DNA from: an uncultured Prevotellaceae bacterium
GTDB taxonomy: Bacteria > Bacteroidota > Bacteroidia > Bacteroidales > Muribaculaceae
Direction: 5' to 3'
Length of the DNA stretch: 64,000 nucleotides
Assembly: GCA_900320245.1 (NCBI GenBank)
Contig: ONRP01000025.1
Span: 45,210-109,209 of the forward strand
In this document: piece by piece, positions 4,937 to 23,105 of the stretch
How the letters are laid out: each line of letters opens with the position of its first letter
Numbering within the stretch: position 1 is the stretch's first letter
Made by a program: the position numbers and the translations under genes
The notes under the pieces: generated by a model
Told to the model about the DNA's origin: nothing
The model's database searches: none
What the model saw: the letters and a program-made list of their open reading frames with translations, nothing else

Positions 4937-5247
4937 TTATTTTATCCCCTTTGGCCATCATCACTACGGGCCTTGAGCCCAAAAATATACTACGAATTGC
5001 ACGCATTTAACTGATCAGGCATCTGCGTTCCAACTGGCAGGAGCGCTGATGCCCATTCGGATAATTCGATTAATTCGCAGGCCGTTATTTGAATCGCTGA
5101 AGCCATAGTCTTGATTGTATTTCTTGTTTTCCCTTCGGCAGAGGTGCGGAAGTCTAACTTTTCTTGTCTTCAAGTGACAGGCGTGTTGCGTCGTGGCGGG
5201 AGAGTGGGGCGACTTGTTAACAAGTGCGAAAAATGGTGCCTTTTTGG
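4937..5247. other. gene-free stretch before the nuo/atp operon
   Basis: About 310 bases with no credible reading frame. Around 5050-5080 there is an AT-rich stretch, TTCGGATAATTCGATTAATT, whose theme (TTCGG-TAATTC) recurs near 22935-22950 in the other large gap. No RNA gene or known element is recognised. Confidence 0.5.
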
Positions 5248-5280
5248 TTTGGCTGTTTAATTAATATTGTGTATATTTGC
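5248..5280 (+). promoter_or_regulatory. promoter of the nuo-atp-nuo operon
   Basis: -33 TTTG (5248-5251), 20-bp spacer, -7 TATATTTGC (5272-5280): an excellent match to the Bacteroidota housekeeping promoter. Transcription would start near 5287 and give an untranslated leader of about 128 nt before nuoA. No comparable promoter is apparent in the short gaps inside the operon. Confidence 0.75.
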
Positions 5281-5299
5281 ACCGATTTTAGGGGCTCTT

Positions 5300-5342
5300 C
5301 TGCATCGATCACATACGCGCGTGTGCGTAATGTATTGTGCAG
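5300..5342 (+). other. stem-loop in the nuoA leader
   Basis: An imperfect long hairpin lies within the operon leader: CTGCA (5300-5304) pairs with TGCAG (5338-5342), and inside it CACATACGC pairs imperfectly with GCGTAATGT. It could protect the 5' end or control the operon, but no known riboswitch class is recognised. Confidence 0.35.
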
Positions 5343-5414
5343 TAGAGACTTTGAGACATTTGCATGTTTTAACCTGACAAAAATTAGAACAAAACAATAC
5401 AAAGATCTTCTTTT

Positions 5415-5801
5415 ATGGAATCATCAATTTTCGGAATTCAGGGCACGACCATGGCGATTACGGCGGCATTGACCGGTGTGTTGCTGGTTGTCGGCGCTCT
5501 GGTAATCGCGTGGTTAATTGGCCCGCGCAGTTACACCAAGAAGAAAGGCGAGCCCTTTGAGTGCGGTATTCCCACCCGAGGCGACTCGATGGCCCAGTAC
5601 CACGTGGGCTATTACCTGTTTGCCATCCTGTTCCTGATGTTTGACGTGGAAACGGTCTTCCTGTTCCCCTGGGCAAGCATCTGCAAGACGATCGCCACTA
5701 CGATTGGCGCTAAGGCCCTGCTCGCTGTGGGAACCTTCCTCGTAATTCTGGTTTTAGGTCTGGCTTATGCCTGGAAGAAAGGAGCGTTGAGATGGAAGTG
5801 A
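5415..5801 (+). CDS. nuoA: NADH-quinone oxidoreductase subunit A
   Basis: 128-residue inner-membrane subunit of complex I. Three hydrophobic helices are visible, about residues 12-35, 62-85 and 95-120. The conserved loop GEPFECGIPTRGD (about 46-58) carries the Cys-containing motif that links the membrane and peripheral arms, followed by FDVETVFLFPWA, a hallmark of NuoA. It is the first gene of the long operon, about 128 nt downstream of a strong promoter. The end overlaps the start of nuoB by 10 bases, indicating translational coupling. A second ATG at codon 13 is possible but would shorten the first helix region. Confidence 0.95.
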   Translation: MESSIFGIQGTTMAITAALTGVLLVVGALVIAWLIGPRSYTKKKGEPFECGIPTRGDSMAQYHVGYYLFAILFLMFDVETVFLFPWASICKTIATTIGAKALLAVGTFLVILVLGLAYAWKKGALRWK

Positions 5802-6406
5802 AAATCAAGTCGATGAAGCATGAGGACTTCAAGGACAACGAGTATATCGATAACCTGGTAGAGCAACTGCGCGCCGGCGGCACCAACATCATCGTTGGCA
5901 AGTTGGACCAGTTGATGAACTGGGGCGTGAGCAACTCGCTGTGGCCGCTGTGCTTCGGCACCAGTTGCTGCGCCATCGAGTTTATGTGCCTGGGTGCTGC
6001 CCGCTACGACATGGCCCGCTACGGCTTTGAGGTGGCGCGCAACAGCCCCCGCCAGGCCGACTACATCATGTGCCAGGGCACGATCAACTACCGCATGGCA
6101 CCGGCCCTCAAGCGCCTGTATGAGCAGATGGCCGAGCCCAAGTATGTCATCGCCTGCGGCTCGTGCACCGTCAGCGGCGGCCCGTTCAAGAACAGTTACT
6201 GCGTGGTTAAGGGCGTGGACGAGATCATCCCCGTGGATGTATATCTGCCCGGCTGCCCCCCGCGTCCCGAGGCCTTCTTCTATGCCCTGATGCAGTTGCA
6301 GCGCAAGATCAAGGTGCAGAAGTACTTTGGCGGCGTGAACCGCAAGGAGAAACTCAAGGACCTGAAATATGACGGCCAGGCCCTCCAGCAGGAAGAAGCC
6401 AAGTAA
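5792..6406 (+). CDS. nuoB: NADH-quinone oxidoreductase subunit B
   Basis: 204-residue peripheral-arm subunit that holds iron-sulfur cluster N2, the last electron carrier before quinone. The four expected ligands are present: adjacent Cys59 and Cys60 in GTSCCAIEFM, Cys125 in ACGSCTVSGG and Cys155 in LPGCPPRPE. The invariant quinone-site region RYDMARYGFEVARNSPRQAD is intact. The C-terminal tail after about residue 175 is Lys-rich and variable. The start overlaps nuoA; nuoCD follows after 26 bases. Confidence 0.97.
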   Translation: MEVKIKSMKHEDFKDNEYIDNLVEQLRAGGTNIIVGKLDQLMNWGVSNSLWPLCFGTSCCAIEFMCLGAARYDMARYGFEVARNSPRQADYIMCQGTINYRMAPALKRLYEQMAEPKYVIACGSCTVSGGPFKNSYCVVKGVDEIIPVDVYLPGCPPRPEAFFYALMQLQRKIKVQKYFGGVNRKEKLKDLKYDGQALQQEEAK

Positions 6407-6432
6407 TTAACCCGACAAAAAACCATCAAGAT

Positions 6433-8067
6433 ATGGCAGAGATACAAGACAAAATCACTCAGTTGTGCCCTCAGGCCCAGGTCGACACCACGGGCGAGTT
6501 CCCGCTGGTGACCGTGCCTGACGCACAGTGGCATGACCTGGCAAATGCCCTCAAGACCCAGTTGCACTACGACGTGCTCAGCGCCGTTGTGGGTATGGAC
6601 TGGACCGACGCCCTGGGCTGTGTTTACTATCTGACCAACACCACCACCCACGAACTGCTGCACGTCAAGGTGACCACGGCCGACCGTGAGAACCCCCGCT
6701 TGCACACCGTGTGCGACGTGTGGCCTGTAGCCAACTTCCAGGAGCGCGAGGTGTATGACTTCTACGGCATCGTGTTCATCGGCCATCCCGACATGCGCCG
6801 CATGTTCCTGCGCAACGATTGGGTAGGCTACCCCCTGCGCAAGGACTACAACCCCGACAGCAACCCCCTGCGTCTCGAGGACGAGACCAACGAGGATTAC
6901 ACCTGTCGCTGGGTCGAGGACGAGAACGGCAAGGTCAAGAAAATCGACGGCAAGGTGTTTGAGGACGACGAGTATGTCGTCAACGTGGGCCCGCAGCACC
7001 CCTCCACTCACGGTGTGATGCGCTACCGCGCCAGCATCGATGGCGAGACGGTGAAGAAGATTGACGTCGTCAGCGGTTACATCCACCGCGGCATCGAGAA
7101 GATGTGTGAGGACCTGACCTATCCCCAGATGCTCCTGTACACCGAGCGTATGGACTACATGGCCGCCCACATCAACCGCCACTGCATGTGCCTGTGCGTC
7201 GAGAAGGCCCTCGGCCTCGAGGTGCCCCGCCGTGCCGAACTCATCCGCCTGATGATGGACGAACTGATGCGTCTGTCGTCCCACCTGCTCAGTTACGGCT
7301 GCTTGACGATGGACCAGGGCGCTACCACGGCATTCTTCTACGGTTTCCGTGAGCGTGAGTTGATTTATGACATCTTTGACCGCACCTGCGGCGCCCGCAT
7401 GTCGATGAGTTACAGCACCATCGGTGGCGTGGTGGCCGACGTGCACGAGGACTTCGTCAAGGACGTGCGCAACGCCTGTGACGTCATCGAGAAGGCCCTC
7501 AAGGAATACCACAAACTGTTCACCGGCAACGTCATCGCCGTGAACCGCATGAAGGGCGTCGGCATCCTCAGCAAGGAAGACGCTGTCGCCTACGACATCA
7601 CCGGCCCCTCGGGCCGCGCCAGCGGGTGGCACTGCGACGTGCGCAAGACCAACCCCTACTCGCTGTACAATGAGTTCGACTTCGACGAGATTACCTACGA
7701 GAATGGTGACTCGATGGACCGCTACATGGTCCGCATGAAGGAGATGGAAGAGTGCATCAAGATTCTGCGCCAGGCCTGCGACAAACTCGAGGCCGAAGGT
7801 CTGCAGGGCGAGTACATCGCCCCCAAGGTGCCCAAGATGATGAAACTGCCCGCCGGCCACTGGTACCAGCAGGTCGAGGCCAGCCGTGGCGCCTTCGGTG
7901 TGTACATCGAGAGCGACGGCAACACCAAGCCCGTGCGCGTCCACTTCCAGTCGCCGTGCTTCAACCTCATCGGCGTGGTCGACCTGACATGTAAGGGTAA
8001 CCTGATTGCCGACCTGATTACCATCACGGCATCGCTCGACTTCGTGATCCCCGACATCGACCGCTAA
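6433..8067 (+). CDS. nuoCD: NADH-quinone oxidoreductase fused subunits C/D
   Basis: 544 residues, a natural fusion of the 30-kDa NuoC subunit and the 49-kDa NuoD subunit, as in several bacterial lineages. The NuoC part is about residues 1-170, with EREVYDFYGIVFIGHPD and LRNDWVGYPLRKDY. A charged linker (about 155-180) leads into NuoD, starting VVNVGPQHPSTHGVMR (about 184-199) and including GYIHRGIEKMCE, YTERMDYMAAHINRH and the C-terminal DLTCKGNLIADLI and FVIPDIDR. Together with NuoB it forms the quinone-binding cavity. NuoD usually contacts NuoG/E/F-linked modules, but those genes are absent here. Confidence 0.96.
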   Translation: MAEIQDKITQLCPQAQVDTTGEFPLVTVPDAQWHDLANALKTQLHYDVLSAVVGMDWTDALGCVYYLTNTTTHELLHVKVTTADRENPRLHTVCDVWPVANFQEREVYDFYGIVFIGHPDMRRMFLRNDWVGYPLRKDYNPDSNPLRLEDETNEDYTCRWVEDENGKVKKIDGKVFEDDEYVVNVGPQHPSTHGVMRYRASIDGETVKKIDVVSGYIHRGIEKMCEDLTYPQMLLYTERMDYMAAHINRHCMCLCVEKALGLEVPRRAELIRLMMDELMRLSSHLLSYGCLTMDQGATTAFFYGFRERELIYDIFDRTCGARMSMSYSTIGGVVADVHEDFVKDVRNACDVIEKALKEYHKLFTGNVIAVNRMKGVGILSKEDAVAYDITGPSGRASGWHCDVRKTNPYSLYNEFDFDEITYENGDSMDRYMVRMKEMEECIKILRQACDKLEAEGLQGEYIAPKVPKMMKLPAGHWYQQVEASRGAFGVYIESDGNTKPVRVHFQSPCFNLIGVVDLTCKGNLIADLITITASLDFVIPDIDR

Positions 8068-8115
8068 TCAACGAGTTAATTAAAACAGAACAAAACCACT
8101 AAAGAGATAATAGAT

Positions 8116-9198
8116 ATGTTTGACTTTGGAATAGTCACAAAATGGTTGGATGACCTGCTGAACAGCGTGATGCCCGGTTGGCTCACAACGACCATCGAGT
8201 GTGTGCTGGTAGCCGTTGGACTGCTGGTAGCCTACTCGCTCATCGCCATGTTCTACATCTTCTACGAGCGCAAGGTCTGCGGTTGGATCCAGTGCCGTCT
8301 GGGCCCGATGCGCGTGGGCAAGTGGGGCTTGCTCCAGGTGTTTGCCGACGTGATTAAGATTCTGCAGAAGGAGTTGATCACCCTGTGGAACACCGACAAG
8401 TTCCTGTTCAAGTTGGCTCCCTATCTGGTGTTGATCGCCTCGATGCTCACCTTCGCCTGTCTGCCCTGGGGTAAGGGCCTGCAGGTTATCGACATGAACA
8501 TCGGCGTGTTCTTCATCATCGCCGTGTCGTCGATCGGCGTGCTGGGTATCCTGCTCGCCGGCTGGTCGAGTAACAGCAAGTACACCCTCATCGGCGCTAT
8601 GCGAAGCGGTGCCCAGATGGTCAGTTACGAGTTGTCGTGCGGCATTTCCATCCTGACGATGGTCTGCCTGGCCGGCACGATGTCCATTACTGGCATCGTC
8701 GAGGCACAGCAGGACGGCTGGTTCATCTTCAAGGGACACCTGCCTGCCATCCTGGCCTTCATCATCTACATGATTGCCGCCAATGCCGAGAACAACCGTG
8801 GCCCGTTTGACCTCCCCGAGGCCGAACACGAGTTGACCGCCGGCTACCACACCGAGTACTCGGGTATCCACTTCGGCTTCTTCTATCTGGCCGAGTACCT
8901 GAACCTGTTCATCGTTTCGGGCATCGCCACGCTGCTCTTCCTGGGCGGCTGGATGCCGTTGCATATTCCCGGTTGGGAAGGCTTCAACCATGTGATGGAC
9001 TACATCCCCAGCGTGGTGTGGTTCCTGGGCAAGGCCTTCTTCATCACCCTGATATTCTTCTGGATCCGCTGGTCCTTCCCGCGCGTGCGCATCGACCAGA
9101 TGCTCGCCCTGGAGTGGCGCTACCTGATGCCCATCGGCCTGGTCAACCTGGTGGTGATGGCCATCGTGGTGACCCAGAAGTGGTACTTCGGTGCTTGA
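8116..9198 (+). CDS. nuoH: NADH-quinone oxidoreductase subunit H
   Basis: 360-residue membrane subunit with about eight predicted helices, forming the ceiling of the quinone tunnel and linking the arms. Conserved motifs are [19 protein letters not shown] (about 51-69), an acidic cluster [19 protein letters not shown], and [16 protein letters not shown]. The C-terminal helix carries [17 protein letters not shown]. Length is slightly above the typical 320-330. It is the last nuo gene before the ATP synthase block, and atpD starts 44 bases later with no terminator-like hairpin in the gap. Confidence 0.96.
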
Positions 9199-9218
9199 TA
9201 AATCGATATCAATACTAA

Positions 9219-10742
<1,524 letters not shown>

Positions 10743-10789
10743 GCCCTCGATTGTGCTGAATTTTAAGTTATACATTATATATTTATAAC

Positions 10790-11023
10790 ATGACACTCAA
10801 AATCATATCGGCCGAACAAATCGAGTTTGAAGGCACCATCGAGTCGGTGACGCTGCCAGGCGTCATGGGACAGTTCCAGGTGCTGAACAACCACGCCGCC
10901 CTCATCGCCGCCCTCAAGGCGGGACGCATGAGTTACGTGGCCGATGGCAACACCGTGGAGCGTGAAATCCACGGCGGTGTGGCCGATGTCAAGGATAATG
11001 TGGTGTCGGTGTGCTTGTATTGA
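10790..11023 (+). CDS. atpC: F1 ATP synthase subunit epsilon (short form)
   Basis: 77-residue protein covering only the N-terminal beta-sandwich of epsilon, with LPGVMGQFQVLNNHAALIAAL being the conserved core. The C-terminal helical hairpin, which in many bacteria inhibits ATP hydrolysis, is absent. Short epsilon subunits are known in Bacteroidota. The consequence, if the enzyme follows the model, is no epsilon-type self-inhibition. It ends 9 bases before atpB. Confidence 0.93.
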   Translation: MTLKIISAEQIEFEGTIESVTLPGVMGQFQVLNNHAALIAALKAGRMSYVADGNTVEREIHGGVADVKDNVVSVCLY

Positions 11024-11032
11024 CGTTAGACT

Positions 11033-12106
11033 ATGAAGAAAGCAATCACAGCAATCATCGCGGTAGTCATCATCGCTCTCATGGCGCTGGGCTATGCCGA
11101 CATGGCAAAGCACAGCCACGGCGGTGAAGGCGAGGCCGAGGTGAACCCCCAGGAGATCATCTTTGAGCACCTGGGCGATGCTTATGGCTGGGAAGTGCCG
11201 TTTAACCACAGCAAGCGCATCCCGTTGCCCATCATCGTGTGGGGCAAGGACGGACTGCACTGCTTCATGAGCAACCGCATCACCGACGGACAGACCTATG
11301 AGGGCTTCAAAATCGCCCAGGGCGGGGACTACAACAACAAGGTGGTCCAGGTCATGGACGACGGCACCGAGGTGCGTCCCTGGGACTTCTCCATCACCAA
11401 GAATGTGGCCTGCATCCTGATTGCCGCCCTGCTGGTGATCGCGATTGTCTTCAAGGTGCGCAACTGGTACAAGCGCAACGGCATGAAGGCACCGCGCCGC
11501 TTCACTGCTGCCCTTGAACTGGTGGTAGACTTTGTCTACACCGACACCATCCGCCCCATTATGGGCAAGGAGGCGCCCAAGTACGGGCCCTACCTGCTGA
11601 CGGTGTTCTTCTTCATCCTGACGATGAACCTGCTGGGACTGATTGTCATCTTCCCCGGCGGTGCCAACCTGACGGGTAACCTGGCCGTGACGGCAGTGCT
11701 CGCTGTCATCACCTTCCTGGTGACCAACCTGACGGGCACCAAGCACTACTGGAAAGAGATGTTCTGGCCCGATGTGCCCACAGCGCTCAAGTGCCCCGTG
11801 CCCCTGATGCAGGTCATTGAGATCTTCGGTATCTTCACCAAGCCCATCGCGTTGATGATCCGTCTCTTTGCCAACATGATGGGTGGCCACATGGTGGTCA
11901 TCGTGTTCATGCTGTTGATCTTCATCTTCGGCAACATGTTCGGCACGGGTGTCGGCGCCGCGATGACACCGCTGTCGGTAGCCCTGTCGCTGTTCATGCT
12001 GCTGCTCGACGTGCTGGTAAGTTTCATCCAGGCCTATGTGTTCACCATCCTGTCCACGATGTTCATCTCGATGGCCCATGTCCACGAGCACGAGCATGCC
12101 GAATAA
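11033..12106 (+). CDS. atpB: Fo ATP synthase subunit a
   Basis: 357 residues, longer than the classical 270 because of an N-terminal extension. It starts with a signal-like helix (about 1-23), then a periplasmic acidic/His-rich segment (HSHGGEGEAE) before the membrane core. The essential Arg of the proton channel is R277 in KPIALMIRLFANMMGGHMVV. At least five further helices follow, ending in a His/Glu-rich tail HVHEHEHAE. The extended N terminus is a usual feature of Bacteroidota subunit a. It is followed by an unusually long, AT-rich gap before atpE. Confidence 0.96.
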   Translation: MKKAITAIIAVVIIALMALGYADMAKHSHGGEGEAEVNPQEIIFEHLGDAYGWEVPFNHSKRIPLPIIVWGKDGLHCFMSNRITDGQTYEGFKIAQGGDYNNKVVQVMDDGTEVRPWDFSITKNVACILIAALLVIAIVFKVRNWYKRNGMKAPRRFTAALELVVDFVYTDTIRPIMGKEAPKYGPYLLTVFFFILTMNLLGLIVIFPGGANLTGNLAVTAVLAVITFLVTNLTGTKHYWKEMFWPDVPTALKCPVPLMQVIEIFGIFTKPIALMIRLFANMMGGHMVVIVFMLLIFIFGNMFGTGVGAAMTPLSVALSLFMLLLDVLVSFIQAYVFTILSTMFISMAHVHEHEHAE

Positions 12107-12184
12107 CGGCAATGACAAACAACTGAATATCAATCAATTGAAATATAAATAAATAACAATAACAAACTAAAAAACTTTACGATT
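12107..12184 (+). other. AT-rich translation leader of atpE
   Basis: A 78-base gap, longer than the other intra-operon gaps (about 0-50). It is almost wholly A/T from about 12118, including repeated AAATAAATAACAATAACAAA-type words. Bacteroidota often rely on A-rich unstructured leaders instead of Shine-Dalgarno sites; this one fits a need to translate subunit c at several copies per complex. Confidence 0.5.
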
Positions 12185-12427
12185 ATGTTAGACATGATTT
12201 TATTAGATGCTATGGCCAACCTTGGCGCAGCAATTGGAGCAGGTATCGCAGCAATCGCAGCAGGTATCGGTATCGGTCGCATCGGCGGCTCGGCTATGGA
12301 GGCTATTGCCCGTCAGCCCGAATCCACCGGTGACATCCGCAGTAACATGATTGTGATTGCCGCTCTGATCGAGGGTGTCGCATTCTTTGCGCTCATCGTT
12401 TGCATCCTTGCCATCTTCATCAAGTAA
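12185..12427 (+). CDS. atpE: Fo ATP synthase subunit c
   Basis: 80-residue hairpin of two membrane helices that forms the rotor ring. The polar loop is ARQPE (42-46). The ion-binding carboxylate is Glu63 in AALIEGVAFF. The first helix is Gly/Ala-rich (GAAIGAGIAAIAAGIGIG). Compared with sodium-binding c subunits, the Gln in helix 1 is replaced by Ile and the residue after the Glu is Gly rather than Ser, so proton coupling is the better inference. An initial Met-Leu-Asp segment may follow a later true start, but the length is normal. Confidence 0.96.
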   Translation: MLDMILLDAMANLGAAIGAGIAAIAAGIGIGRIGGSAMEAIARQPESTGDIRSNMIVIAALIEGVAFFALIVCILAIFIK

Positions 12428-12451
12428 TCCACCTCTTAACCGGTTTACCAG

Positions 12452-12949
12452 ATGGAACTTTTCAAGCCTGAATTTGGCCTGGCGTTCTGGATGTTCATCG
12501 CCTTCCTGTGCCTCTTTGGCATCCTTGCCAAGTGGGCATGGCCCTTCATCATCAAGTCGATGGAGGAGCGTGCCGACTTGATTGACAAGGGCGTGGCCTA
12601 TGCACAGGAGGCTAAGTCACACCTGGACAATGCCAAGGCCGAGGCGGACAAATTGATTGCCGAGGCCCACAACAAGCAGGCCGAAATCCTGCGCGAGGCC
12701 GCCAAGGCGCGCAACGAACTCATCGAGAAGGCGCGCAGCGAGGCAGCCGACGAGGCCAAGAAGGTGACCGAAGCCGCTCAAGTCTCGCTTGAGCAGGCGC
12801 GCAAGGAGGCCGAGAAGCAATTGCGCACCGAGGTGGGTGACCTGGCGTTGCAGATTGCCGAGAAGGTGATCCGCCGCAATATCGCCAGCGACGACGCCCA
12901 GCGTGCGCTTGTGGACCAATATCTGAGTGAGGTAGAGACTAAAAACTAA
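12452..12949 (+). CDS. atpF: Fo ATP synthase subunit b
   Basis: 165 residues: one N-terminal membrane helix (about 8-27, LAFWMFIAFLCLFGILAKWA) and then a long, highly charged Ala/Glu/Lys-rich helix that dimerises as the peripheral stalk. Length and layout are standard. It starts 24 bases after atpE and ends 6 bases before atpH. Confidence 0.96.
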   Translation: MELFKPEFGLAFWMFIAFLCLFGILAKWAWPFIIKSMEERADLIDKGVAYAQEAKSHLDNAKAEADKLIAEAHNKQAEILREAAKARNELIEKARSEAADEAKKVTEAAQVSLEQARKEAEKQLRTEVGDLALQIAEKVIRRNIASDDAQRALVDQYLSEVETKN

Positions 12950-12955
12950 CGCGAT

Positions 12956-13498
12956 ATGAGTGACGGACTGATTCCACGTCGATATGCCAAAGCGCTGTAC
13001 AAGTACGCTGTCGAGAACGGTGACTCTAAGGAGATCTATGAACTCCTGAAGTCGCTCAGTTTCCGCTATACCGCTATCGACGAACTCAAGCGCGCGGTGC
13101 TCAACCCCGAAATCTCTGACGAGGCCAAAGGAGCCTTCATGCTCAAACTCGTCGGCGGCAAGCCCGGCAGTTCACTGGACAAGTTCCTGCTGCTGTGCGT
13201 GCGCAACAACCGAGCCGAGTATCTGCAGAAGATTTCCTTAGCCTATGTCGACCTTTACCGCGAGGCCCACGAGATAGCCCACGTGGTCATCACCACCGCT
13301 GTCCCCATGCTTGAGCCCGAGGTCAATGCCATTATCGACATCGTGAAGAAACGCCTCGGGGCCATGGAACTCGAAATCGAGAAGAGAATCGACCCCGAAC
13401 TCATCGGCGGGTTCACTGTGGTCATCAACGGCCTGGTGCTCGATGCGTCGGTAAAGAGAGAGTTGAACGAATTGCGATTACAACTGCAAAAGAAATAA
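12956..13498 (+). CDS. atpH: F1 ATP synthase subunit delta
   Basis: 180-residue peripheral-stalk subunit joining subunit b to alpha. The N-terminal helical domain carries IPRRYAKALYKYAVENG and the C-terminal part the conserved DPELIGGFTVVINGLVLDAS. Length is as expected. It is tightly packed, 6 bases after atpF and 12 bases before atpA. Confidence 0.95.
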   Translation: MSDGLIPRRYAKALYKYAVENGDSKEIYELLKSLSFRYTAIDELKRAVLNPEISDEAKGAFMLKLVGGKPGSSLDKFLLLCVRNNRAEYLQKISLAYVDLYREAHEIAHVVITTAVPMLEPEVNAIIDIVKKRLGAMELEIEKRIDPELIGGFTVVINGLVLDASVKRELNELRLQLQKK

Positions 13499-13510
13499 CA
13501 GATTCCAACG

Positions 13511-15106
13511 ATGATTAATCCCAGTGAAATATCTGATATACTGAAACAGCAACTCGTCGAAGACATCGCCAAGAGGCAGGTCGCCTTTGAAGAAGAAGGC
13601 ACCGTCCTGGAGGTGGGTGACGGCGTGGCACATGCCTATGGCCTGCACAATGTCGAGGCCAACGAACTCGTGCAGTTCGAGAACGGCGTGACCGGCGTTG
13701 CCATGAACCTTGAGGAGAGCGATGTGGGTATCATCCTGCTCGACGAGGTCGACACTGTCACCGAGAACATGAAGGTGCGCCGCACCGGCGCCATCGCCTC
13801 TATCGAGGTCGGTGAGGGCTTGCTGGGCCGCGTGATCAACGTGCTGGCCAAGCCCATCGACGGCAAAGGACCCATCGAGGGCGACAAGTTGCGTCTGCCC
13901 CTGGAGCGCAAGGCTCCCGGTGTCATCTTCCGCCAGCCGGTGAACCAGCCGCTGCAGACGGGCCTCAAGGCCATCGACTCGATGATTCCCATCGGCCGTG
14001 GACAGCGAGAACTTATCATCGGTGACCGCCAGATCGGCAAGACAGCCATCGCCGTGGACACCATCATCAACCAGCGTGCAGGCTACGAGGCCGGCAAGCC
14101 GGTCTACTGCATCTATGTCGCCATCGGCCAGAAGGCTTCGACGGTGGCTGCCCTCGTCAACAAACTCGAGGAGAGCGGCGCCCTGCCTTACACCATCGTC
14201 GTTGCCGCTACGGCAGCCGACTCGGCGTCGATGCGCTACTACGCCCCGTTTGCCGGAGCCGCTATCGGTGAGTACTTCCGTGACACAGGCCGCGACGCCC
14301 TGGTCATCTACGACGACCTGTCCAAGCATGCTGTTGCCTACCGCGAGATTTCGCTGATCCTCAAGCGCCCCTCGGGCCGTGAGGCTTATCCCGGCGATAT
14401 CTTCTACCTGCACAGCCGTCTGCTCGAGCGTGCAGCCAAGATCAACGAGAACCAGGCTGTGGCCAGCGTGATGAACGACCTGCCCGCACCGCTCAAGCCC
14501 ATCGTCAAGGGCGGCGGCTCGCTGACGGCATTGCCCATCATCGAGACCCAGGCCGGCGACGTGAGCGCCTATATCCCCACCAACGTGATTTCGATTACCG
14601 ACGGTCAGATCTATCTGGAGTCGGCCCTGTTCAACTCGGGTATCCGCCCGGCCGTGAACGTGGGTATCTCAGTATCGCGTGTCGGCGGTAACGCCCAGAT
14701 CAAGTGTATGAAGAAGGTGGCCGGTACGCTCAAGATTGCCCAGGCACAGTATCGTGAACTGGAGGCCTTCACCAAGTTCGGTGGAGACATCGACCCCGTG
14801 ACCGCGCGCACCATCGACACCGGCCGCAAGAACGAGCGCCTGCTCGTGCAGCCCCAGTACTCGCCCATGGTGGTCGAGGAACAGGTGGCCATCATCTACT
14901 GTGGTGTGAACGGCCTGTTGCGCGACGTGCCTCTGGACAAGGTGGCCGAGTTTGAGAAACTGTTCATCAACTTCCTGCGCGGCAAGCACCAGCACGATGT
15001 GCTCGACGTGCTACGCTCGGGCAAGATCGACGACGACGTCATGGCCAAACTCAAGCAAGCAGCCGCCGATGTCGCCAGGAGATATACCGATGCCCCGGCC
15101 AGTTAA
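13511..15106 (+). CDS. atpA: F1 ATP synthase subunit alpha
   Basis: 531-residue non-catalytic nucleotide-binding subunit. The Walker A motif GDRQIGKT is at residues 171-178, with [18 protein letters not shown] following and the catalytic-site arginine region [16 protein letters not shown] later. The N-terminal beta-barrel (about 25-95) and C-terminal helical domain are complete. Start and spacing are consistent with coupling to atpH. Confidence 0.98.
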
Positions 15107-15130
15107 TCAAGCAAATTTTAAGTTCGCAAG

Positions 15131-16015
15131 ATGTCAACATTAAGAGAACTCAAGACGCGAATAGGTTCGGTAGCCTCGACCCAGAAGACGACGAGTGCCA
15201 TGAAGATGATCTCGTCGTCCAAGATGCGCAAGGCCACCGGCCAGTTGCAGCGTCTCTCGCCCTACCGCCACATGGTGCAGCACGTCATCAGCCACTTGCT
15301 GGTGACCGACCAGCAGTTCGACTCGCCGCTCATCGTCGAGCGCGAGGTGCAGCGTGTTGCCCTGGTGATATTCGGCAGTGACGACGGCCTGTGCGGCGGA
15401 TACAACGTCAACATCTTCAAGCAGTTGCTGGCGAGAATCCACCAGGTGCGCACCGACTATGGCTCCAAGGTGGGCATCACCGTTGTCCCCGTGGGCAAGA
15501 AGATGACCAAGGCGGTGGCCAAGATTGCCGGTGCCGACATCCAGGTCGAGCGTGTGGCGCTCAACACCCGCAGCGACAGCGAGCAACTGTATGACTTCAC
15601 CGACCTGATGAAGACGCGTTTCCTGGAGCATACCTACGACCGTGTGGAGGTGCTGTACATGCACTTCATCTCCACCGGCAAGCAGGTGTTTGCCAGCGAG
15701 CAGTTGCTGCCCGTGAGTTACCAGGGCCTGGCCGAGAATGTCGACCCGCGTGCCGCCAACAGCCCCTGCCTGTTTGAGCCTGACGCCAACACCATCTTCA
15801 ACACCGTGCTGCCCCTGCACATCAAGTCGATGCTCCAGGATGTGTTCATCCAGAGCACGGCCAGCGAGCAGAGCGCACGCGTGATGGCGATGCAGGCGGC
15901 CAGCGACAACGCCAAGGAACTGCTCGACAGCCTGCAACTGGAGTACAACAAACTGCGTCAACAGGGCATCACCACCGAACTGCTCGACATCCTGGGCGGA
16001 CAGGTGCAACGCTAA
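15131..16015 (+). CDS. atpG: F1 ATP synthase subunit gamma
   Basis: 294-residue central-stalk subunit. The N-terminal helix has TLRELKTRIGSVASTQKTTS and the C-terminal helix ARVMAMQAASDNAKELLDSL, the two ends that form the coiled coil inside the alpha-beta ring. The middle Rossmann-like domain has GLCGGYNVNIFK. It ends the ATP synthase block; nuoI begins 35 bases later without an intervening terminator. Confidence 0.96.
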   Translation: MSTLRELKTRIGSVASTQKTTSAMKMISSSKMRKATGQLQRLSPYRHMVQHVISHLLVTDQQFDSPLIVEREVQRVALVIFGSDDGLCGGYNVNIFKQLLARIHQVRTDYGSKVGITVVPVGKKMTKAVAKIAGADIQVERVALNTRSDSEQLYDFTDLMKTRFLEHTYDRVEVLYMHFISTGKQVFASEQLLPVSYQGLAENVDPRAANSPCLFEPDANTIFNTVLPLHIKSMLQDVFIQSTASEQSARVMAMQAASDNAKELLDSLQLEYNKLRQQGITTELLDILGGQVQR

Positions 16016-16050
16016 TGCGAAATGTCTAGACAACAAGAAAACATTATATT

Positions 16051-16611
16051 ATGAATATCAAGGAGTATTTCGTCTCAATCTTTAAAGGCTTCTACAGCCT
16101 GATCAAGGGCATGGAGGTTACCGGCAAGGAACTGGTGACCCGCAAGGTGACTGAGCAGTATCCCGAGAACCGCGCCGAACTCAAGATTCCGGAGCGTTTC
16201 CGTGCCACGCTCGAGTTCATCTACGACGATAACGGCTGCCACAAGTGCATCGCTTGCGGCAGTTGTGAGCGCAATTGCCCCAACCAGACCATCAGCATCA
16301 CCAAGCGTATGGTCGAACTGCCCGACGGCAAGAAGAAAATGAAACTCGACAAGTACACGTACGACTTGGGTAGTTGCACCTTCTGCGGACTGTGTGTACA
16401 GGTGTGTCCCACCAATGCCATCCGCTTCAGCAACGACTTTGAGCAGGCAGTGTTCACGCGCGAGAAACTCGTCAAGCAACTCAATTATCTGCCCGAGAAG
16501 GACGATGCTCCGGCACCTGTCGCCAAGCCCGCTGCTCCGGCCAAGCCCGCTCCCGAGCCCAAGCCCGCAGCCGACGAGACCAAAATAGAAACTAAAGAAA
16601 ATAAGGAATAA
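16051..16611 (+). CDS. nuoI: NADH-quinone oxidoreductase subunit I
   Basis: 186-residue ferredoxin-like subunit with two 4Fe-4S clusters (N6a and N6b). Ligand motifs are CIACGSCERNCP (starting near residue 66) and CTFCGLCVQVCP (about 110-121). An N-terminal amphipathic segment anchors it to the membrane arm. The C-terminal tail (about 150-186) is a Pro/Ala/Lys-rich low-complexity extension not needed for cluster binding. The complex I genes resume here after the ATP synthase block. The stop codon shares a base with the ATG of nuoJ. Confidence 0.96.
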   Translation: MNIKEYFVSIFKGFYSLIKGMEVTGKELVTRKVTEQYPENRAELKIPERFRATLEFIYDDNGCHKCIACGSCERNCPNQTISITKRMVELPDGKKKMKLDKYTYDLGSCTFCGLCVQVCPTNAIRFSNDFEQAVFTREKLVKQLNYLPEKDDAPAPVAKPAAPAKPAPEPKPAADETKIETKENKE

Positions 16612-17150
16612 TGGAATCAGTAGGTAACATCATTTTGTTTTTCGTCGTTGCCATCGCCATCATCGTCTTCTCGGTGCTGACGGTAACAACGCGTAAGATT
16701 CTGCGCTCGGCAACCTATCTGCTGTTTGTGCTTTTTGCAACAGCCATCATCTACTTCCAGATGGACTATCAGTTCCTGGGAGCAGTGCAGATTGCCGTCT
16801 ACGCCGGAGGTATCCTGGTGCTCTTTGTCTTTGCCATCATGCTCACGCAGCGGCCCGGCAAGGATGCCGAGGGTCTCTCGTCCCATCGTCGCTGGCTGGG
16901 CCTGACGGCTGCTTTGGCGGGTGTCGCCGTGTGTGGCTACGCGCTGTTCAGTTATGTCGGCTTCACTGGAGGCAAGACGATTGCCTCGGTCATTGACGGC
17001 AAGGACATCGGCGAGATTGTCAATATGGAGACAATCGGCAATTTCTTGCTGAGCACCGACAAGTTCGGCTACCTGTTGCCCTTCGAGGCCATCAGTGTGT
17101 TGTTATTGGCATGTATCATCGGAGGTGTGGTTATCGCCCGTCGCCGCTAA
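16611..17150 (+). CDS. nuoJ: NADH-quinone oxidoreductase subunit J
   Basis: 179-residue membrane subunit with five predicted helices. The conserved core is AVQIAVYAGGILVLFVFAIM, which in complex I contains the pi-bulge helix that gates proton transfer. Start TAATG overlaps the nuoI stop, implying coupling. nuoK follows after 23 bases. Confidence 0.95.
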   Translation: MESVGNIILFFVVAIAIIVFSVLTVTTRKILRSATYLLFVLFATAIIYFQMDYQFLGAVQIAVYAGGILVLFVFAIMLTQRPGKDAEGLSSHRRWLGLTAALAGVAVCGYALFSYVGFTGGKTIASVIDGKDIGEIVNMETIGNFLLSTDKFGYLLPFEAISVLLLACIIGGVVIARRR

Positions 17151-17173
17151 ACACGAGAAAGGAGAGAAATATT

Positions 17174-17485
17174 ATGGAATTGAAACTGTTAATGTATCTC
17201 ATTCCCAGCCTGATCATGTTTGGCTGTGGCGTTTATGGTTTTATCACCCGCAAGAACATGATTGCGATCATGATTTCGCTCGAGTTGATGCTCAACTCGG
17301 TGGATATCAACTTTGTGGTGTTTAACCGTTTCCTGTTCCCCGGTCAGATGGAAGGCATGTTCTTCACGCTGTTCGCGATTGCCATCGCGGCTGCCGAGAC
17401 GGCGCTTGCCATTGCCATCATCATCAATGTGTTCCGCATTGCCAAGAACGTGGACATCAAACAAATCACTAAACTGAAATTCTAA
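17174..17485 (+). CDS. nuoK: NADH-quinone oxidoreductase subunit K
   Basis: 103-residue three-helix membrane subunit. The conserved acidic residue of helix 2 is in SLELMLNSVDINFV and that of helix 3 in AIAAAETALAIAI. An open frame extends upstream into nuoJ, but the ATG at 17174 is chosen because it gives the family-length protein and is preceded by AAAGGAG (17158-17164) at 9-base spacing, an unusually clear ribosome-binding site for this phylum. Confidence 0.95.
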   Translation: MELKLLMYLIPSLIMFGCGVYGFITRKNMIAIMISLELMLNSVDINFVVFNRFLFPGQMEGMFFTLFAIAIAAAETALAIAIIINVFRIAKNVDIKQITKLKF

Positions 17486-17490
17486 CGATT

Positions 17491-19491
17491 ATGCCATTAA
17501 GTTTAGCAATAGTAGTTGTAGCATTACCCCTGCTGATGTTCCTGTTCCTGGGACTTGTCGGGGTGAAAATGGGTAGAAAAGTCACTGGTGTGATTGGCGT
17601 GCTGGCCATGCTGGTCGATACCGTCCTTGCCTATGGCGTGGCGCTGACCTACTTCTTCGGCAGCGGCCAGGGCCAGATGACTGCCGACGGTGTGCGCCAG
17701 GCTGTTGTCGTGGCCAATCCCGCCTGGCTGTCGTTTACCGACACGCTGGTGGTGCGCATGGGTGTCCTCGTTGACCCCATCGCCGCGATGATGCTTGTGG
17801 TCATCACCACCGTCTCGCTGATGGTGCACCTGTACAGCCTCGGTTACATGAGCGACCATGAGGGCAACGCCGAGAAGGGTTTCCAGCGTTACTACGCCTT
17901 CCTGGCCCTGTTCACGTTCTCGATGCTGGGTCTGGTGGTTGCCACCAACATTTTCCAGATTTTCATCTTCTTTGAGATGGTGGGTCTCTCGTCCTACCTG
18001 CTCATCGGTTTCTATTATTCGTCGCCCGATGCCAACCATGCCAACAAGAAGGCCTTCATCGTCACCCGCTTGGCCGACCTGTTCTTCCTGTTGGGTATCA
18101 TGATACTGAGTTTCTACACCGGCACGTTCGACTTCGACCAGTTGGTCTTCGGTCCTACCGAGGCCGGTGCTGTCTCGCCTGCGGCACAAGCGGCCGTCAG
18201 CAAGGTGGGCGGCACCTTTATGGGCTGCTCGGTGATCGCCTGGGCTTTGACCTTCATCTTTATCGGCGGTGCCGGTAAGAGTGCGATGTACCCCTTGCAC
18301 ATCTGGCTGCCCGATGCTATGGAGGGCCCGACGCCCGTGTCGGCACTGATCCACGCCGCTACGATGGTTGTCGCCGGTGTGTTCCTGGTGGCAAGGTTGT
18401 TCCCGCTGTATGTCCTCGTCGAGGGTGCGATGAACGTCATCCTCGTCGTCGGTGCCTTCACGGCCTTCTATGCAGCGGCCATCGCCTGCACCCAGAGCGA
18501 CATCAAGCGCGCGCTGGCCTTCTCGACCATCTCGCAGATTGCCTTCATGATGACCTCGCTCGCCGTGAGCGCGATGGATAACAAACTCATCGAGATTCAC
18601 GGTGGCTACGGTCTGGGCTACATGGCATCGATGTTCCACCTGTTCACCCACGCCATGTTCAAGGCGTTGCTCTTCCTGTGTGCCGGTGCCATCATCCATG
18701 CCGTCCACAGCAACGAGAACAGCAAGATGCACGGCCTGCACAAGTTCATGCCCATCACCAGCATCTGCTTCCTCATCGGCTGTCTGGCCATCGCGGGCAT
18801 TCCCCCGTTTGCCGGCTTCTTCAGCAAGGACGAGATCCTCGTGGCTGCCTATCACCGCGGCCTGGGTTGGGGATTGTGGATGTCGATGGTGGCTTGCATG
18901 ACCGCCTTCTACATGTTCCGCATCTACTACCTCATCTTCTTCTGGAAAAAACATGAGGTTCACGACGAGCATCACGCACCCAAGGACCAGCCCTGGACGA
19001 TGACGTTGCCGCTGATTATCCTCGCCGCCATCTCGTGCGTTGCCGGCTTCGTGCCCTTCCACGACCTGGTGACCTGGGACGGCAAGGCGCTGCACACCTC
19101 CATCGACTGGACGGTGGCCGGCTCGAGCATCGCTGTTGCCCTGGTGGGCATCGGCCTGGCCACGGTGATGTACCGCAAGGAGAACCCGCTGCCCGAGCGC
19201 ATGGCCAATGCGATGCGAGGCCTGTGGACCGCTTCCTACAAGCGTTTCTACATGGACGAACTCTACCAGTTCATCACCCACAAGGTGATCTTCCAGGGCA
19301 TCTGTGTGCCCATCGCCTGGTTCGACCGCCACATCATCGACGGCTTCATGAACCTGCTGGCCGACGCCACCAGTTCGCTGTCCTACGGCATCCGCCGCTT
19401 CCAGTCGGGCAGCGTGCAGGGTTATGTGTACGTTTACCTGTTGGGAGCACTGTTGCTCGCTGCAGTCACCATGATATGTGTATTGTTTTAA
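17491..19491 (+). CDS. nuoL: NADH-quinone oxidoreductase subunit L
   Basis: 666-residue antiporter-like proton-pumping subunit at the far end of the membrane arm, with about 16 helices including a C-terminal lateral helix. Characteristic segments are FFEMVGLSSYLLIGFYY, GKSAMYPLHIWLPDAMEGP and TPVSALIHAATMVVAGVFL; the Lys of GKSAM and the later FSKDEI are part of the proton path. There is a hydrophilic insert (residues about 488-505, HEVHDEHHAPKDQ) before the last helices. Starts 5 bases after nuoK. Confidence 0.97.
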   Translation: MPLSLAIVVVALPLLMFLFLGLVGVKMGRKVTGVIGVLAMLVDTVLAYGVALTYFFGSGQGQMTADGVRQAVVVANPAWLSFTDTLVVRMGVLVDPIAAMMLVVITTVSLMVHLYSLGYMSDHEGNAEKGFQRYYAFLALFTFSMLGLVVATNIFQIFIFFEMVGLSSYLLIGFYYSSPDANHANKKAFIVTRLADLFFLLGIMILSFYTGTFDFDQLVFGPTEAGAVSPAAQAAVSKVGGTFMGCSVIAWALTFIFIGGAGKSAMYPLHIWLPDAMEGPTPVSALIHAATMVVAGVFLVARLFPLYVLVEGAMNVILVVGAFTAFYAAAIACTQSDIKRALAFSTISQIAFMMTSLAVSAMDNKLIEIHGGYGLGYMASMFHLFTHAMFKALLFLCAGAIIHAVHSNENSKMHGLHKFMPITSICFLIGCLAIAGIPPFAGFFSKDEILVAAYHRGLGWGLWMSMVACMTAFYMFRIYYLIFFWKKHEVHDEHHAPKDQPWTMTLPLIILAAISCVAGFVPFHDLVTWDGKALHTSIDWTVAGSSIAVALVGIGLATVMYRKENPLPERMANAMRGLWTASYKRFYMDELYQFITHKVIFQGICVPIAWFDRHIIDGFMNLLADATSSLSYGIRRFQSGSVQGYVYVYLLGALLLAAVTMICVLF

Positions 19492-19527
19492 ATCAACGGT
19501 CTTGACAAAATAGAAAGGATATATCAA

Positions 19528-21081
19528 ATGGAAATTTTCAATAATATACTGATTTACTTTGTGATCGTGCCTCTGCTGACGCTTGGAGGACTCGCCCTGT
19601 GCCGCAACCGCGGTATCAAGGCCATCAGGACCGTTGCCGTGATCGGCGCCAGTGCCCTCATGGTGCTCGCCGCCATTCTCGTGAAGATGTTCCTTGCCGC
19701 CCGCGGCGCCGGTGACACCAGCGAGATGATCCTGCGCACCGACGTGATGTGGTATGCCCCGTTCAATGTCCAGTTGGCCCTGGGTGTCGACGGCGTGAGC
19801 GTGGTGATGATTCTGCTGTCGGCGTTCATCGTGTTCGCCGGTGTGTTCGCCTCGTGGAAGATGAATCCGCTGCCCAAGCAGTACTTCATGTGGTTCTTCC
19901 TGCTGTCCACGGGTGTGTTCGGCTTCTTTATCTCGATCGACCTGTTCACGATGTTCATGTTCTATGAGGTCGCTCTGATTCCCATGTACCTGCTGATTGG
20001 CGTGTGGGGTAGCGGCAACAAGAACTACAGCGCGATGAAACTGACCCTGATGCTGATGGGAGGCTCGGCCTTCCTGATGCTCGGCCTGATTGGTATCTAC
20101 TTCCACTCGGCCCCCGAGGGTCAGCCCCTGACGATGAACATCCTGGACATCGCCCATAACGACGCTATTCCCCACAGTTGGCAGTATGCCTTGTTCCCCT
20201 TGACGTTTGTCGGTTTCGGCGTGCTGGGTGCCATGTTCCCGTTCCACACATGGTCGCCCGATGGTCATGCCTCGGCGCCCACCGCGGTGTCGATGCTCCA
20301 CGCCGGTGTGCTGATGAAACTGGGAGGTTACGGCTGCTTCCGCATCGCCATCTACCTGATGCCCTATGCCGCCAACGAGTTGGCTTGGATTTTCCTCTCG
20401 CTCACGGGCCTGAGCATCGTCTACGGTGCGCTGAGCGCCTGTGTGCAGACCGACCTCAAGTACATCAACGCTTACTCCAGCGTGAGCCACTGCGGTATGG
20501 TGTTGTTTGCCGTTCTGATGTTCAACACCACGGCGATGACCGGTGCCGTGCTGCAGATGCTCTCACACGGTCTGATGACGGCCTTGTTCTTTGCCCTGAT
20601 CGGTATGATCTACGGCCGCACCCACACGCGTGACATCCGCGACATGGGCGGTATGATGCACATCATGCCTTACCTGGGCGTGGGTTATGTGATAGCGGGT
20701 CTGGCGTCGCTGGGTCTGCCGGGCCTGAGCGGTTTCGCGGCCGAGATGACCATCTTCTTCGGCTCGTTCGAGAACGCCGACACCTTCCGTCGCGTGCTCA
20801 CCATCATGGCCACCACGTCGATTGTCGTGACGGCGGTCTACATCCTGCGCGTTGTTGCCAAACTGTTGTTCGGCGAGGTACAGGATGAGCACCACCTCAC
20901 CTTGACCGACGCTACCTGGGAGGAGCGCCTGTCGACGGCCACGCTGATTCTTGCCGTGGCAGCCATCGGTTGCTTCCCCAACTTCTTTGTTGACATCATC
21001 AAGAGCAGTTTCACCCCCGTTGTCAATGCGCTGATGGCAGCAGCCCCTGGCACTGCCGCCGGCACGTTGCCCATGTTCTAA
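19528..21081 (+). CDS. nuoM: NADH-quinone oxidoreductase subunit M
   Basis: 517-residue antiporter-like proton-pumping subunit with about 14 helices. Diagnostic segments: FMFYEVALIPMYLLIGVWG (the conserved Glu), PFHTWSPDGHASAPTAVSML and LKYINAYSSVSHCGMVLF. Length is typical. Lies between nuoL and nuoN with gaps of about 36-40 bases. Confidence 0.97.
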   Translation: MEIFNNILIYFVIVPLLTLGGLALCRNRGIKAIRTVAVIGASALMVLAAILVKMFLAARGAGDTSEMILRTDVMWYAPFNVQLALGVDGVSVVMILLSAFIVFAGVFASWKMNPLPKQYFMWFFLLSTGVFGFFISIDLFTMFMFYEVALIPMYLLIGVWGSGNKNYSAMKLTLMLMGGSAFLMLGLIGIYFHSAPEGQPLTMNILDIAHNDAIPHSWQYALFPLTFVGFGVLGAMFPFHTWSPDGHASAPTAVSMLHAGVLMKLGGYGCFRIAIYLMPYAANELAWIFLSLTGLSIVYGALSACVQTDLKYINAYSSVSHCGMVLFAVLMFNTTAMTGAVLQMLSHGLMTALFFALIGMIYGRTHTRDIRDMGGMMHIMPYLGVGYVIAGLASLGLPGLSGFAAEMTIFFGSFENADTFRRVLTIMATTSIVVTAVYILRVVAKLLFGEVQDEHHLTLTDATWEERLSTATLILAVAAIGCFPNFFVDIIKSSFTPVVNALMAAAPGTAAGTLPMF

Positions 21082-21121
21082 ATGAGAGTGTTTAACCTGA
21101 TAAAAATCGCATAATATAGAT

Positions 21122-22600
21122 ATGATGGATTATTCACAATTCTTATCGATGCCGCAGGAGATAGGCCTGTTGCTGGTTTTCCTGCTTGTTTTCATCTACG
21201 ACACTTTCATGCCTGAGCGCACCCAACGTCACCTGCCCGTGTTCACGGTCATCATGATGGCGCTCTACACGATATACTGCTTCTGTGTGCCCGCTGTCAA
21301 GGAGGGAACTCAAGTGTTCTTTGGCGGCATGTTCGAGGCCAATGCGGCTACCTGGGTGATGAAGAACATCCTCAACGTGGGTACCGTGCTGGTGCTCCTG
21401 CAGGCCGTTAAGTGGACCAACAGCGACTTTGTCAGCGTTCGCCGCGGCGAGTTCTACGAGTTGACGCTGTTGACCTTGTTCGGCATGTTCCTCATGATTT
21501 CGGCACGTCACTTCCTGCTGTTTGTCATCGGCCTGGAGACCGCCTCGCTGCCCATTGCAGCGCTGGCCGCCTTCGAGAAACGTCACTACGAGTCGCACGA
21601 GGCCGCTGCCAAGTACATCTTCACGGCTATCTTCTCGTCGGCGATTTTCCTGTTGGGCATCTCCTTCGTCTATGGTATGAGCGGTACACTCTACTTCAGG
21701 GACATTGCCTCGCGCATCGCCGGTGAGCACTCGGCCCTGCTGATTGCCGCTCTGGCCTTTGTTATTGCCGGTGTAGGCTTCAAACTCTCGCTCGTGCCGT
21801 TCCACCAGTGGACAGCCGACGTTTACCAGGGCGCTCCCACTGCCGTGACCAGTTACCTGTCGGTCATCAGCAAGGGTGCCGCCGCATTCTCGTTCCTGGT
21901 GATTCTGGTGCAGGTCTTCGGCGCTGCCTATTCCCAGGTGTGGGAGTGGATGCTCTATGCCGTGATTATCCTGACCATCACGCTTGGTAACCTGTTTGCC
22001 ATGCGTCAGCGCAACCTGAAGCGCTTCCTGGCCTTCTCGTCGATCTCGCAGGCCGGTTACATCATGCTCGGCGTCATCGCCGTCAACGTGATGGGTATGT
22101 CCTCGATGATTTACTACGTGCTGGTCTACATCTTCAGCAACCTCGCCGCCTTCGGCGTGATTGCCGCTATCGAGCGCCAGACCGGCCGCGTCACCATGGA
22201 CGACTACAACGGCTTGTTCAAGACCAACCCGTGGCTGGCCTTCACGATGATGTTGGCGATGTTCTCGCTCGGCGGTATTCCCCCGTTTGCAGGCTTCTTC
22301 AGCAAGTTCTTCATCTTCGTCGGCGCCTGCCATCAGGGCTCGGTGGCCATCTACGTGCTCGTGCTCATCGCGTTGATCAACACCATCATCTCGCTCTACT
22401 ACTACCTGCTGGTGGTCAAGGCCATGTTCCTGCGTCAGGACGACTGCGTCATTCCCACCATCAAGAGCCACTGGAGCGAGCGTGCCGGCCTCATCTTGTG
22501 TGTGCTGGGCATCGTCTTCATCGGACTGGTAAGTTGCATCTACGTCTACATCAACGGCTCGTTGGATGCCATGGGCTCGATGTTCAAATTGATCCAGTGA
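21122..22600 (+). CDS. nuoN: NADH-quinone oxidoreductase subunit N
   Basis: 492-residue antiporter-like proton-pumping subunit, with about 14 helices. Motifs: GLETASLPIAALAAFEK, GFKLSLVPFHQWTADVYQG and LKRFLAFSSISQAGYIMLG. Final gene of the operon; a long hairpin terminator lies about 160 bases downstream. Two adjacent ATG codons start the frame; the first is taken. Confidence 0.97.
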   Translation: MMDYSQFLSMPQEIGLLLVFLLVFIYDTFMPERTQRHLPVFTVIMMALYTIYCFCVPAVKEGTQVFFGGMFEANAATWVMKNILNVGTVLVLLQAVKWTNSDFVSVRRGEFYELTLLTLFGMFLMISARHFLLFVIGLETASLPIAALAAFEKRHYESHEAAAKYIFTAIFSSAIFLLGISFVYGMSGTLYFRDIASRIAGEHSALLIAALAFVIAGVGFKLSLVPFHQWTADVYQGAPTAVTSYLSVISKGAAAFSFLVILVQVFGAAYSQVWEWMLYAVIILTITLGNLFAMRQRNLKRFLAFSSISQAGYIMLGVIAVNVMGMSSMIYYVLVYIFSNLAAFGVIAAIERQTGRVTMDDYNGLFKTNPWLAFTMMLAMFSLGGIPPFAGFFSKFFIFVGACHQGSVAIYVLVLIALINTIISLYYYLLVVKAMFLRQDDCVIPTIKSHWSERAGLILCVLGIVFIGLVSCIYVYINGSLDAMGSMFKLIQ

Positions 22601-22759
22601 GCCCCGCTCGCTGGAGTTCAAAGTGGAGTAGGGGATTGTGCGGCACATGCCGCCCCCTGAACTCAAAACTTTAAGTTTGAGTAGTAAACTTAAATAAATA
22701 CTACTTCTGATATCATTTAGCATAACCAAGCAGAAGATTTGTTTCAAGTTATTAACCGA
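22601..22759. other. short palindromes after nuoN
   Basis: The stretch holds three small inverted repeats: GCGGCA/TGCCGC (22640-22653), the near-perfect palindrome ACTCAAAACTTTAAGTTTGA plus two bases (22661-22682), and AGTAGTA/TACTACT just after it. None has a clean T-run, so they may be processing or stability structures at the 3' end of the operon mRNA. No gene is seen. Confidence 0.4.
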
Positions 22760-22800
22760 GGGAGGCTCAGTGGAGGACCACAGGGCCTCCCGTCTTTTTT
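22760..22800 (+). terminator. terminator of the nuo-atp-nuo operon
   Basis: Stem GGGAGGC / GCCTCCC with an inner GTGG/CCAC helix, followed by GTCTTTTTT. A strong rho-independent terminator 160 bases after nuoN. Confidence 0.8.
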
Positions 22801-23023
22801 GTGCAGGCGAAAGAGGTGGGCATTGATTCGATGTTTCAGAAGACAGGATAGACAAGAAGGACAAATAGAATTGTTCGACAGAATAGCACTCAGTTATCTT
22901 TCTTGTCTTTCTTTTGCTGGGATTGCCGATGCCAATTCGGTTAATTCACATCGAAAAACAGGTTTGACACGTCATTCTTTTTTGGGAAAAAAAGCAAAAA
23001 TGTGATTGTTTTTTGGAAAAAGA
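22801..23023. other. gene-free stretch upstream of the LRR protein
   Basis: No credible gene. Contains CCAATTCGGTTAATTCACAT (about 22932-22951), which shares the TTCGG-TAATTC theme with the gap before nuoA. Becomes strongly A/T-rich from 22975 on, where the promoter of the next gene lies. Confidence 0.4.
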
Positions 23024-23056: not shown

Positions 23057-23105
23057 GTATTAACTTGAAAAGAATTAAGTCTAACCACATAAAATCAAAG
23101 GAATT

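Follow-up and report, generated by a model that had tools for sequence, protein, structure and literature searches.

The ATP synthase genes of a Muribaculaceae genome lie nested within its complex I locus, an old arrangement shared with other Bacteroidales families that probably forms one operon

The closest described system is the integrated locus of S24-7/'Ca. Homeothermaceae' (Muribaculaceae), for which an F-type ATP synthase inside the complex I locus was reported in 26 genomes, together with a complex I that lacks NuoEFG (Ormerod et al., 2016, PMC4936053; this and the other papers cited are represented here by excerpts). The nested arrangement is thus already known for Muribaculaceae since 2016, while the insertion point, the promoter, the phylogeny and other families are not given in the excerpts of that report. 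In Bacteroides fragilis, as excerpted, the nuo operon also comprises ten genes without nuoEFG, but these occupy ten consecutive locus tags (BF638R_0850-0841) and, unlike the locus described here, are uninterrupted by atp genes (PMC7002350), in agreement with the expectation of the original prediction that the two sets are separate in Bacteroides. The atp unit of Bacteroides and Prevotella, beta-epsilon-a-c-b-delta-alpha-gamma, has the same internal order as atpD-C-B-E-F-H-A-G here, and nuo genes go unmentioned in the excerpted parts of that source (PMC5709465). Among open-licence papers we found the arrangement reported in PMC4936053 only, and no report on its insertion point, its promoter or its occurrence in other families; what this work adds is its breadth (six further families), its probably single origin, and evidence on its promoter and leader.

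The locus analysed here, in which the ATP synthase likewise lies within the complex I locus, is part of a window of 64,000 nucleotides, by which we mean the whole stretch of DNA that was analysed. Between 5415 and 22600, 18 open frames follow one another on the plus strand as nuoA-B-CD-H, atpD-C-B-E-F-H-A-G and nuoI-J-K-L-M-N, with every gene and coordinate as the original prediction had given them. The best NCBIfam match of all 18 frames is the expected subunit, and several short subunits score under the curated cut-off of single NCBIfam models. In the following list, genes are defined by open frame and NCBIfam match except where indicated.

4917-4938, plus strand: terminator-like hairpin after the preceding gene, 8 pairs and a T-rich tail, of a kind no commoner than in shuffles
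5248-5279, plus strand: Bacteroides-type promoter motif TTTG-N20-TATATTTG (consensus from PMC7366714)
5280-5414, plus strand: 5' leader with a covarying hairpin at about 5288-5354 and conserved AACCTGACAAAAATT at 5371-5385
5415-5801, plus strand: nuoA
5792-6406, plus strand: nuoB
6433-8067, plus strand: nuoCD fusion
8116-9198, plus strand: nuoH
9199-9242, plus strand: junction 1 (nuoH-atpD), 44 bp, Bacteroides-type promoter motif or terminator not found
9243-10742, plus strand: atpD (beta)
10790-11023, plus strand: atpC (epsilon, 77 aa, short form)
11033-12106, plus strand: atpB (a)
12185-12427, plus strand: atpE (c), also aligned to 1yce
12452-12949, plus strand: atpF (b)
12956-13498, plus strand: atpH (delta)
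13511-15106, plus strand: atpA (alpha)
15131-16015, plus strand: atpG (gamma)
16016-16050, plus strand: junction 2 (atpG-nuoI), 35 bp, Bacteroides-type promoter motif or terminator not found
16051-16611, plus strand: nuoI
16611-17150, plus strand: nuoJ
17174-17485, plus strand: nuoK, by NCBIfam, start set inside the longer frame 17111-17485
17491-19491, plus strand: nuoL
19528-21081, plus strand: nuoM
21122-22600, plus strand: nuoN
22760-22800, plus strand: intrinsic terminator with a 7-bp G+C stem and a T-run, read directly

The two junctions do not stand out in size, as had been predicted: 44 bp and 35 bp compare with -10 to 78 bp for the remaining gaps, and across loci the median junction gaps are 51 bp (nuoH-atpD) and 39 bp (atpG-nuoI), with medians of -10 to 78 bp elsewhere. 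Nor is the atp block set apart by its composition, its G+C being 0.58 against 0.58 and 0.56 in the flanking nuo parts.

Based on the sequence evidence assembled in this work, we propose that the 18 genes form one operon, that the levels of proton pump and ATP synthase are thereby linked, and that a single nesting event was inherited with the nuo genes, a combined reading to which we assign a probability of roughly 0.75. With regard to origin, the atp operon would have entered the space between nuoH and nuoI a single time, in a common ancestor that Muribaculaceae share with no fewer than six other families of Bacteroidales. In an order-wide sample of 149 genomes, NuoH matched with more than 370 bits in 57, of which 50 also had atpG; nested spacing occurred in 11 genomes, three from the same family and eight from six others (f22, f28, f60, f68, f88, f109). 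A search for atp genes inside nuo loci of other Bacteroidales, proposed with the original prediction, thus recovered the nested order in six further families, and reading the genes in order confirmed nuoA-B-CD-H, atpD-G and nuoI-N in all eight genomes, while in eleven other genomes read in the same way nuoH adjoins nuoI. Phylum-wide, among the matches listed, both genes lie on one contig in 31 of 89 genomes, with one pair less than 40 kb apart, in which atpG precedes nuoH and nuoH adjoins nuoI. Two un-nested layouts may be recorded in their own right: in one of the eleven genomes with nuoH beside nuoI, from a lineage near the nested clade (G401; loci L153, L154 and L216), a single contig carries both operons uninterrupted and convergent, with about 11.4 kb between them, and in a distant phylum member (G475; L214 and L215) nuoH adjoins nuoI while atpG stands some 8.4 kb upstream, on the same strand as nuoH.

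The atp genes and the nuo genes, whose phylogenies the original prediction had proposed to compare, were each placed in a tree. The nuo tree (NuoB, CD, H and I; 39 taxa, 1224 columns) and the atp tree (AtpD, B, A and G; 41 taxa, 1631 columns) both split the nested taxa from all others, with bipartition supports of 100 and 92, respectively, and the six families group alike in both: G404 goes with f22 (89 and 78), f28 goes with G363 and then G355, and G383 stands apart. Within Muribaculaceae a few branches conflict between the two trees. Because the nested taxa form one clade with the same family grouping in both trees, the nesting probably arose once and was then inherited vertically with the nuo genes; repeated transfer of the atp block would not give this pattern, and the idea that single lineages acquired the block horizontally finds no support, as the trees group the families alike and the G+C is similar. 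A single origin is also what one would expect if the nesting were a frozen accident that brought no benefit and was kept since any breakage would strand genes without a promoter, and the outgroups do manage without nesting; on the other side, no family genome with readable junctions shows a break. That account concerns why the nesting persists and is compatible with co-transcription, and we give it somewhat less than even odds. The arrangement is true, old and stable. This old joining in gut and rumen Bacteroidales would offer a natural test of whether cells gain by locking proton production to proton use, with the un-nested outgroups allowing a comparison for the rearrangement.

One further layout places the two operons side by side. 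In Bacteroidales bacterium SIG115 (L125, L192) the nuo and atp operons stand in tandem, atpD coming about 300 bases downstream of nuoN. This layout resembles the nested locus in having both operons on one strand but differs from it in that the nuo operon is uninterrupted. This tandem was rejected as a direct ancestor, as it is not adjacent to the nested clade in either tree; it may be independent of the nesting, and its position shows that adjacency can arise rather than which path was taken.

With regard to expression, the transcript of the proposed single operon would start at the promoter (5248-5279), end at the terminator (22760-22800) and measure about 17.5 kb. The primary sigma factor consensus of B. 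fragilis consists of TTTG around -33 and TAnnTTTG at -7, and its -33 part was not found in Flavobacterium (PMC7366714, as excerpted). In the window, TTTG stands at 5248 and TATATTTG at 5272-5279, and scanning 4000-23500 on both strands for TTG-N17-23-TAnnTTTG returned two sites only, 5249-5279 and 23025, so that the promoter predicted at 5248-5280, before nuoA, is the only Bacteroides-type motif between 4000 and 23000. The second motif (23025-23055) lies downstream of the operon, before a repeat-rich 900-aa gene at 23106. In the family loci, the window included, the motif was found within 300 bases before the gene match in 46 of 56 cases for nuoA, 0 of 60 for atpD and 0 of 47 for nuoI, and five other internal genes, pooled, had it in 1 of 269 gene-by-locus stretches; ten further loci (eight from other families and two from single-contig genomes) have it before nuoA in five, before atpD in one (L148) and before nuoI in none. 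The motif scan overlooks promoters, because 10 of 56 family loci and 5 of 10 further loci are without the motif even before nuoA.

The first strong terminator had been predicted at 22760, and a GGGAGGC/GCCTCCC inverted repeat followed by a T-run indeed occupies 22760-22800 after nuoN; it is absent from both terminator scans, its loop being longer than the scans allow. The consensus terminator scan was uninformative, with 16 sites versus 16.6 in shuffles. Across loci, terminator-like sites occur in 0 of 70 nuoH-atpD junctions, in 2 of 57 atpG-nuoI junctions (L146, L150) and in 6 of 11 cases after nuoN, and at neither junction of the window was a Bacteroides-type promoter motif or terminator found, the kind of signal that, according to the original prediction, would have isolated the atp block. 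Since the promoter-motif pattern, the terminator positions and the short junction gaps taken together favour one transcript, most likely a single 17-kb RNA makes the proton pump and the ATP synthase together. From motifs and gene order, then, we infer co-transcription and linked amounts: a single transcript would encode the ten-gene complex I and a full F-type ATP synthase, and the proton pump and the proton-driven synthase would be made at linked levels. The model gives a clear RNA sequencing prediction for cultured Muribaculaceae.

ATP synthase is usually required in larger amount than complex I, which speaks for a nested but partly uncoupled operon, in which an internal promoter of a type other than TAnnTTTG, RNA processing or differential decay would set the ATP synthase apart. 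In rich medium B. fragilis expresses its nuo operon poorly (PMC7002350, as excerpted), which raises the question of how the ATP synthase stays up under one shared promoter. In other families, two loci carry a small hairpin and a T-run between atpG and nuoI (L146 and L150, from two families) and one locus carries a promoter-like motif before atpD (L148), so that partial uncoupling is possible in those loci, and in the window itself an E. coli-type 9-of-12 match at 9195-9222 lies across junction 1. However, such E. coli-type matches are no commoner than in shuffles (14 versus 10.8, sd 3.3), the window junctions are without a detected Bacteroides-type promoter motif or terminator, and no family locus has the motif at a junction (0 of 60 and 0 of 47). 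Partial uncoupling, which can hold alongside a full-length transcript, is in our view less likely than not.

The leader measures about 135 nt from the -7 box to the nuoA start. In close relatives (alignment A1 of L065-L108) it has CACCG followed by a hairpin of about 70 nt and then by a nearly invariant AACCTGCCAAAAATT, after which come A-rich sequence and the ATG. The stem was assessed with 15 pairs, 34 sequences and 500 shuffles on a structure derived from the fold of the window itself, a choice that works in its favour: 83.8% of cells pair versus 79.4% (sd 0.9) in shuffles, 29 cells are changed on both sides versus 15.2 (sd 3.0), and the covariation is 0.318 versus 0.257, values that 0 of 500 shuffles reached in each case. 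Pairs with a double change number 8 versus 5.8 (34 of 500 shuffles as high) and further pair types 28 versus 23.6 (8 of 500); versions of the stem slid along the alignment pair in 33.5-62.4% of cells, although in further pair types the +1 slide, with 30, exceeds the actual structure. The measures most robust to relatedness favour the hairpin only moderately. For the same alignment RNAalifold gives a weak consensus of -3.89 kcal/mol with 13 pairs, of which seven are shared with the named stem, and seven single leader folds have z-scores of -0.75 to -2.60.

The leader is found only in close relatives. It has no match in Rfam at the gathering score, and a loosened threshold returned three hits only, all against the opposite strand, with eukaryotic RNA families and E values exceeding 2. 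Over 52 sources, a model of the leader scores high in the window and L083, both in the alignment, and in L077, which was not used in building it, and at most 24.3 bits elsewhere; in 149 family genomes (22 candidates scored per genome) the only good match is in the own genome, four others reaching E 0.014-0.055, and nine same-genus genomes listed gave no match. We consider it unlikely that the structured leader, belonging to no Rfam family, is a cis-regulatory RNA that governs the whole pump and synthase operon at once.

As to what the two complexes do, the complex I set comprises nuoA, B, C, D, H, I, J, K, L, M and N, with C and D fused and thus in ten genes, and no nuoE, nuoF or nuoG lies within the operon, so that by its operon it would be of the 11-subunit type, presumably fed by an electron donor other than NADH. 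In B. fragilis, a nuo deletion brought no significant change in NADH oxidation (PMC7002350, as excerpted). The F-type ATP synthase is complete, with eight of eight subunits. When its c subunit was aligned to the sodium-specific 1yce, the position of the Gln was found to be Ile and the residue following the carboxylate Gly. A sodium-type c subunit carries the signature Gln/Glu-Ser. Because the c subunit is without sodium-type residues at the aligned positions, it is probably of the proton type, and hence both machines would use H+ as coupling ion; the simplest function of the arrangement would be to tie the synthesis of a proton pump to that of a proton-driven synthase.

In N-ATPases, atpQ and atpR lie between epsilon and a, and atpH is lacking. 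An N-ATPase identity was ruled out, as atpH is present and just 9 bp separate atpC and atpB; the N-ATPase gene order including R is described in PMC4154653 (as excerpted). The epsilon subunit at 10790-11023, of 77 aa, is without its C-terminal half. This short form, already known for the phylum (PMC4154653, as excerpted), was rejected as a trait of the nesting, as it measures 74-83 aa from match start to stop in nested and un-nested loci alike.

The position of the split is a different matter. The original prediction had placed it between nuoH and nuoI at a module boundary, and here it was mistaken, for NuoI belongs structurally with NuoB and NuoCD in the Q-module, and the atp block therefore parts NuoI from its structural partners. 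We regard it as very improbable that the nesting aids assembly during translation or a supercomplex of complex I and ATP synthase: only the conserved neighbourhood speaks for this, and the parting of nuoI from nuoB and nuoCD speaks against it.

Most of the named relatives found by NuoH are metagenome-assembled genomes; the closest come from the rumen and other gut samples, and the records bear the labels Muribaculaceae, Prevotellaceae, Porphyromonadaceae or Bacteroidales. Of 80 named loci, nuoH is followed by atpD in 60, the other 20 being 18 with nuoH directly followed by nuoI and two ending at nuoH; among the named nested loci with atpG, nuoI follows in 46 of 48 and two end there. Searching 297 family genomes for nuoH and atpG gave 72, the own genome included, with both among the matches listed: in 58 of these the two lie on one contig and one strand, 6.7-7.8 kb from start to start, and in 14 on different contigs. 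In all 14 the contigs stop within the block or at its edge; in 13 the nuoH contig runs into atpD and then ends, and in the last (G093) the other contig shows atpG-nuoI. Fifteen further family genomes have one of the two genes, with nuoH-atpD in 7 of 10 and an end in or just after nuoH in 3 of 10, and atpG-nuoI in 5 of 5, while 5 of 297 have neither gene. No family genome with readable junctions has a broken block. Misassembly at the junctions, which the original prediction had named as a concern, is excluded by two single-contig genomes, G173 from the same genus and G092 from the same family, in which the full order is identical. That the nesting is an assembly or binning artefact of a metagenome-assembled genome, as the spread of the own genome over 73 contigs might suggest, can be dismissed with near certainty, given the full order in those two genomes, the nuoH-atpD junction in most named loci and the prior publication of the arrangement (PMC4936053).

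The own genome (3.02 Mb, 73 contigs, 90% complete) has a single nuoH and a single atpG. It also holds a third match to the ATP-synthase alpha/beta family, at C60:31732-32283, which resembles rho and is divided between two frames, of 458 aa and 234 aa; this division could be a consensus error of the assembly.
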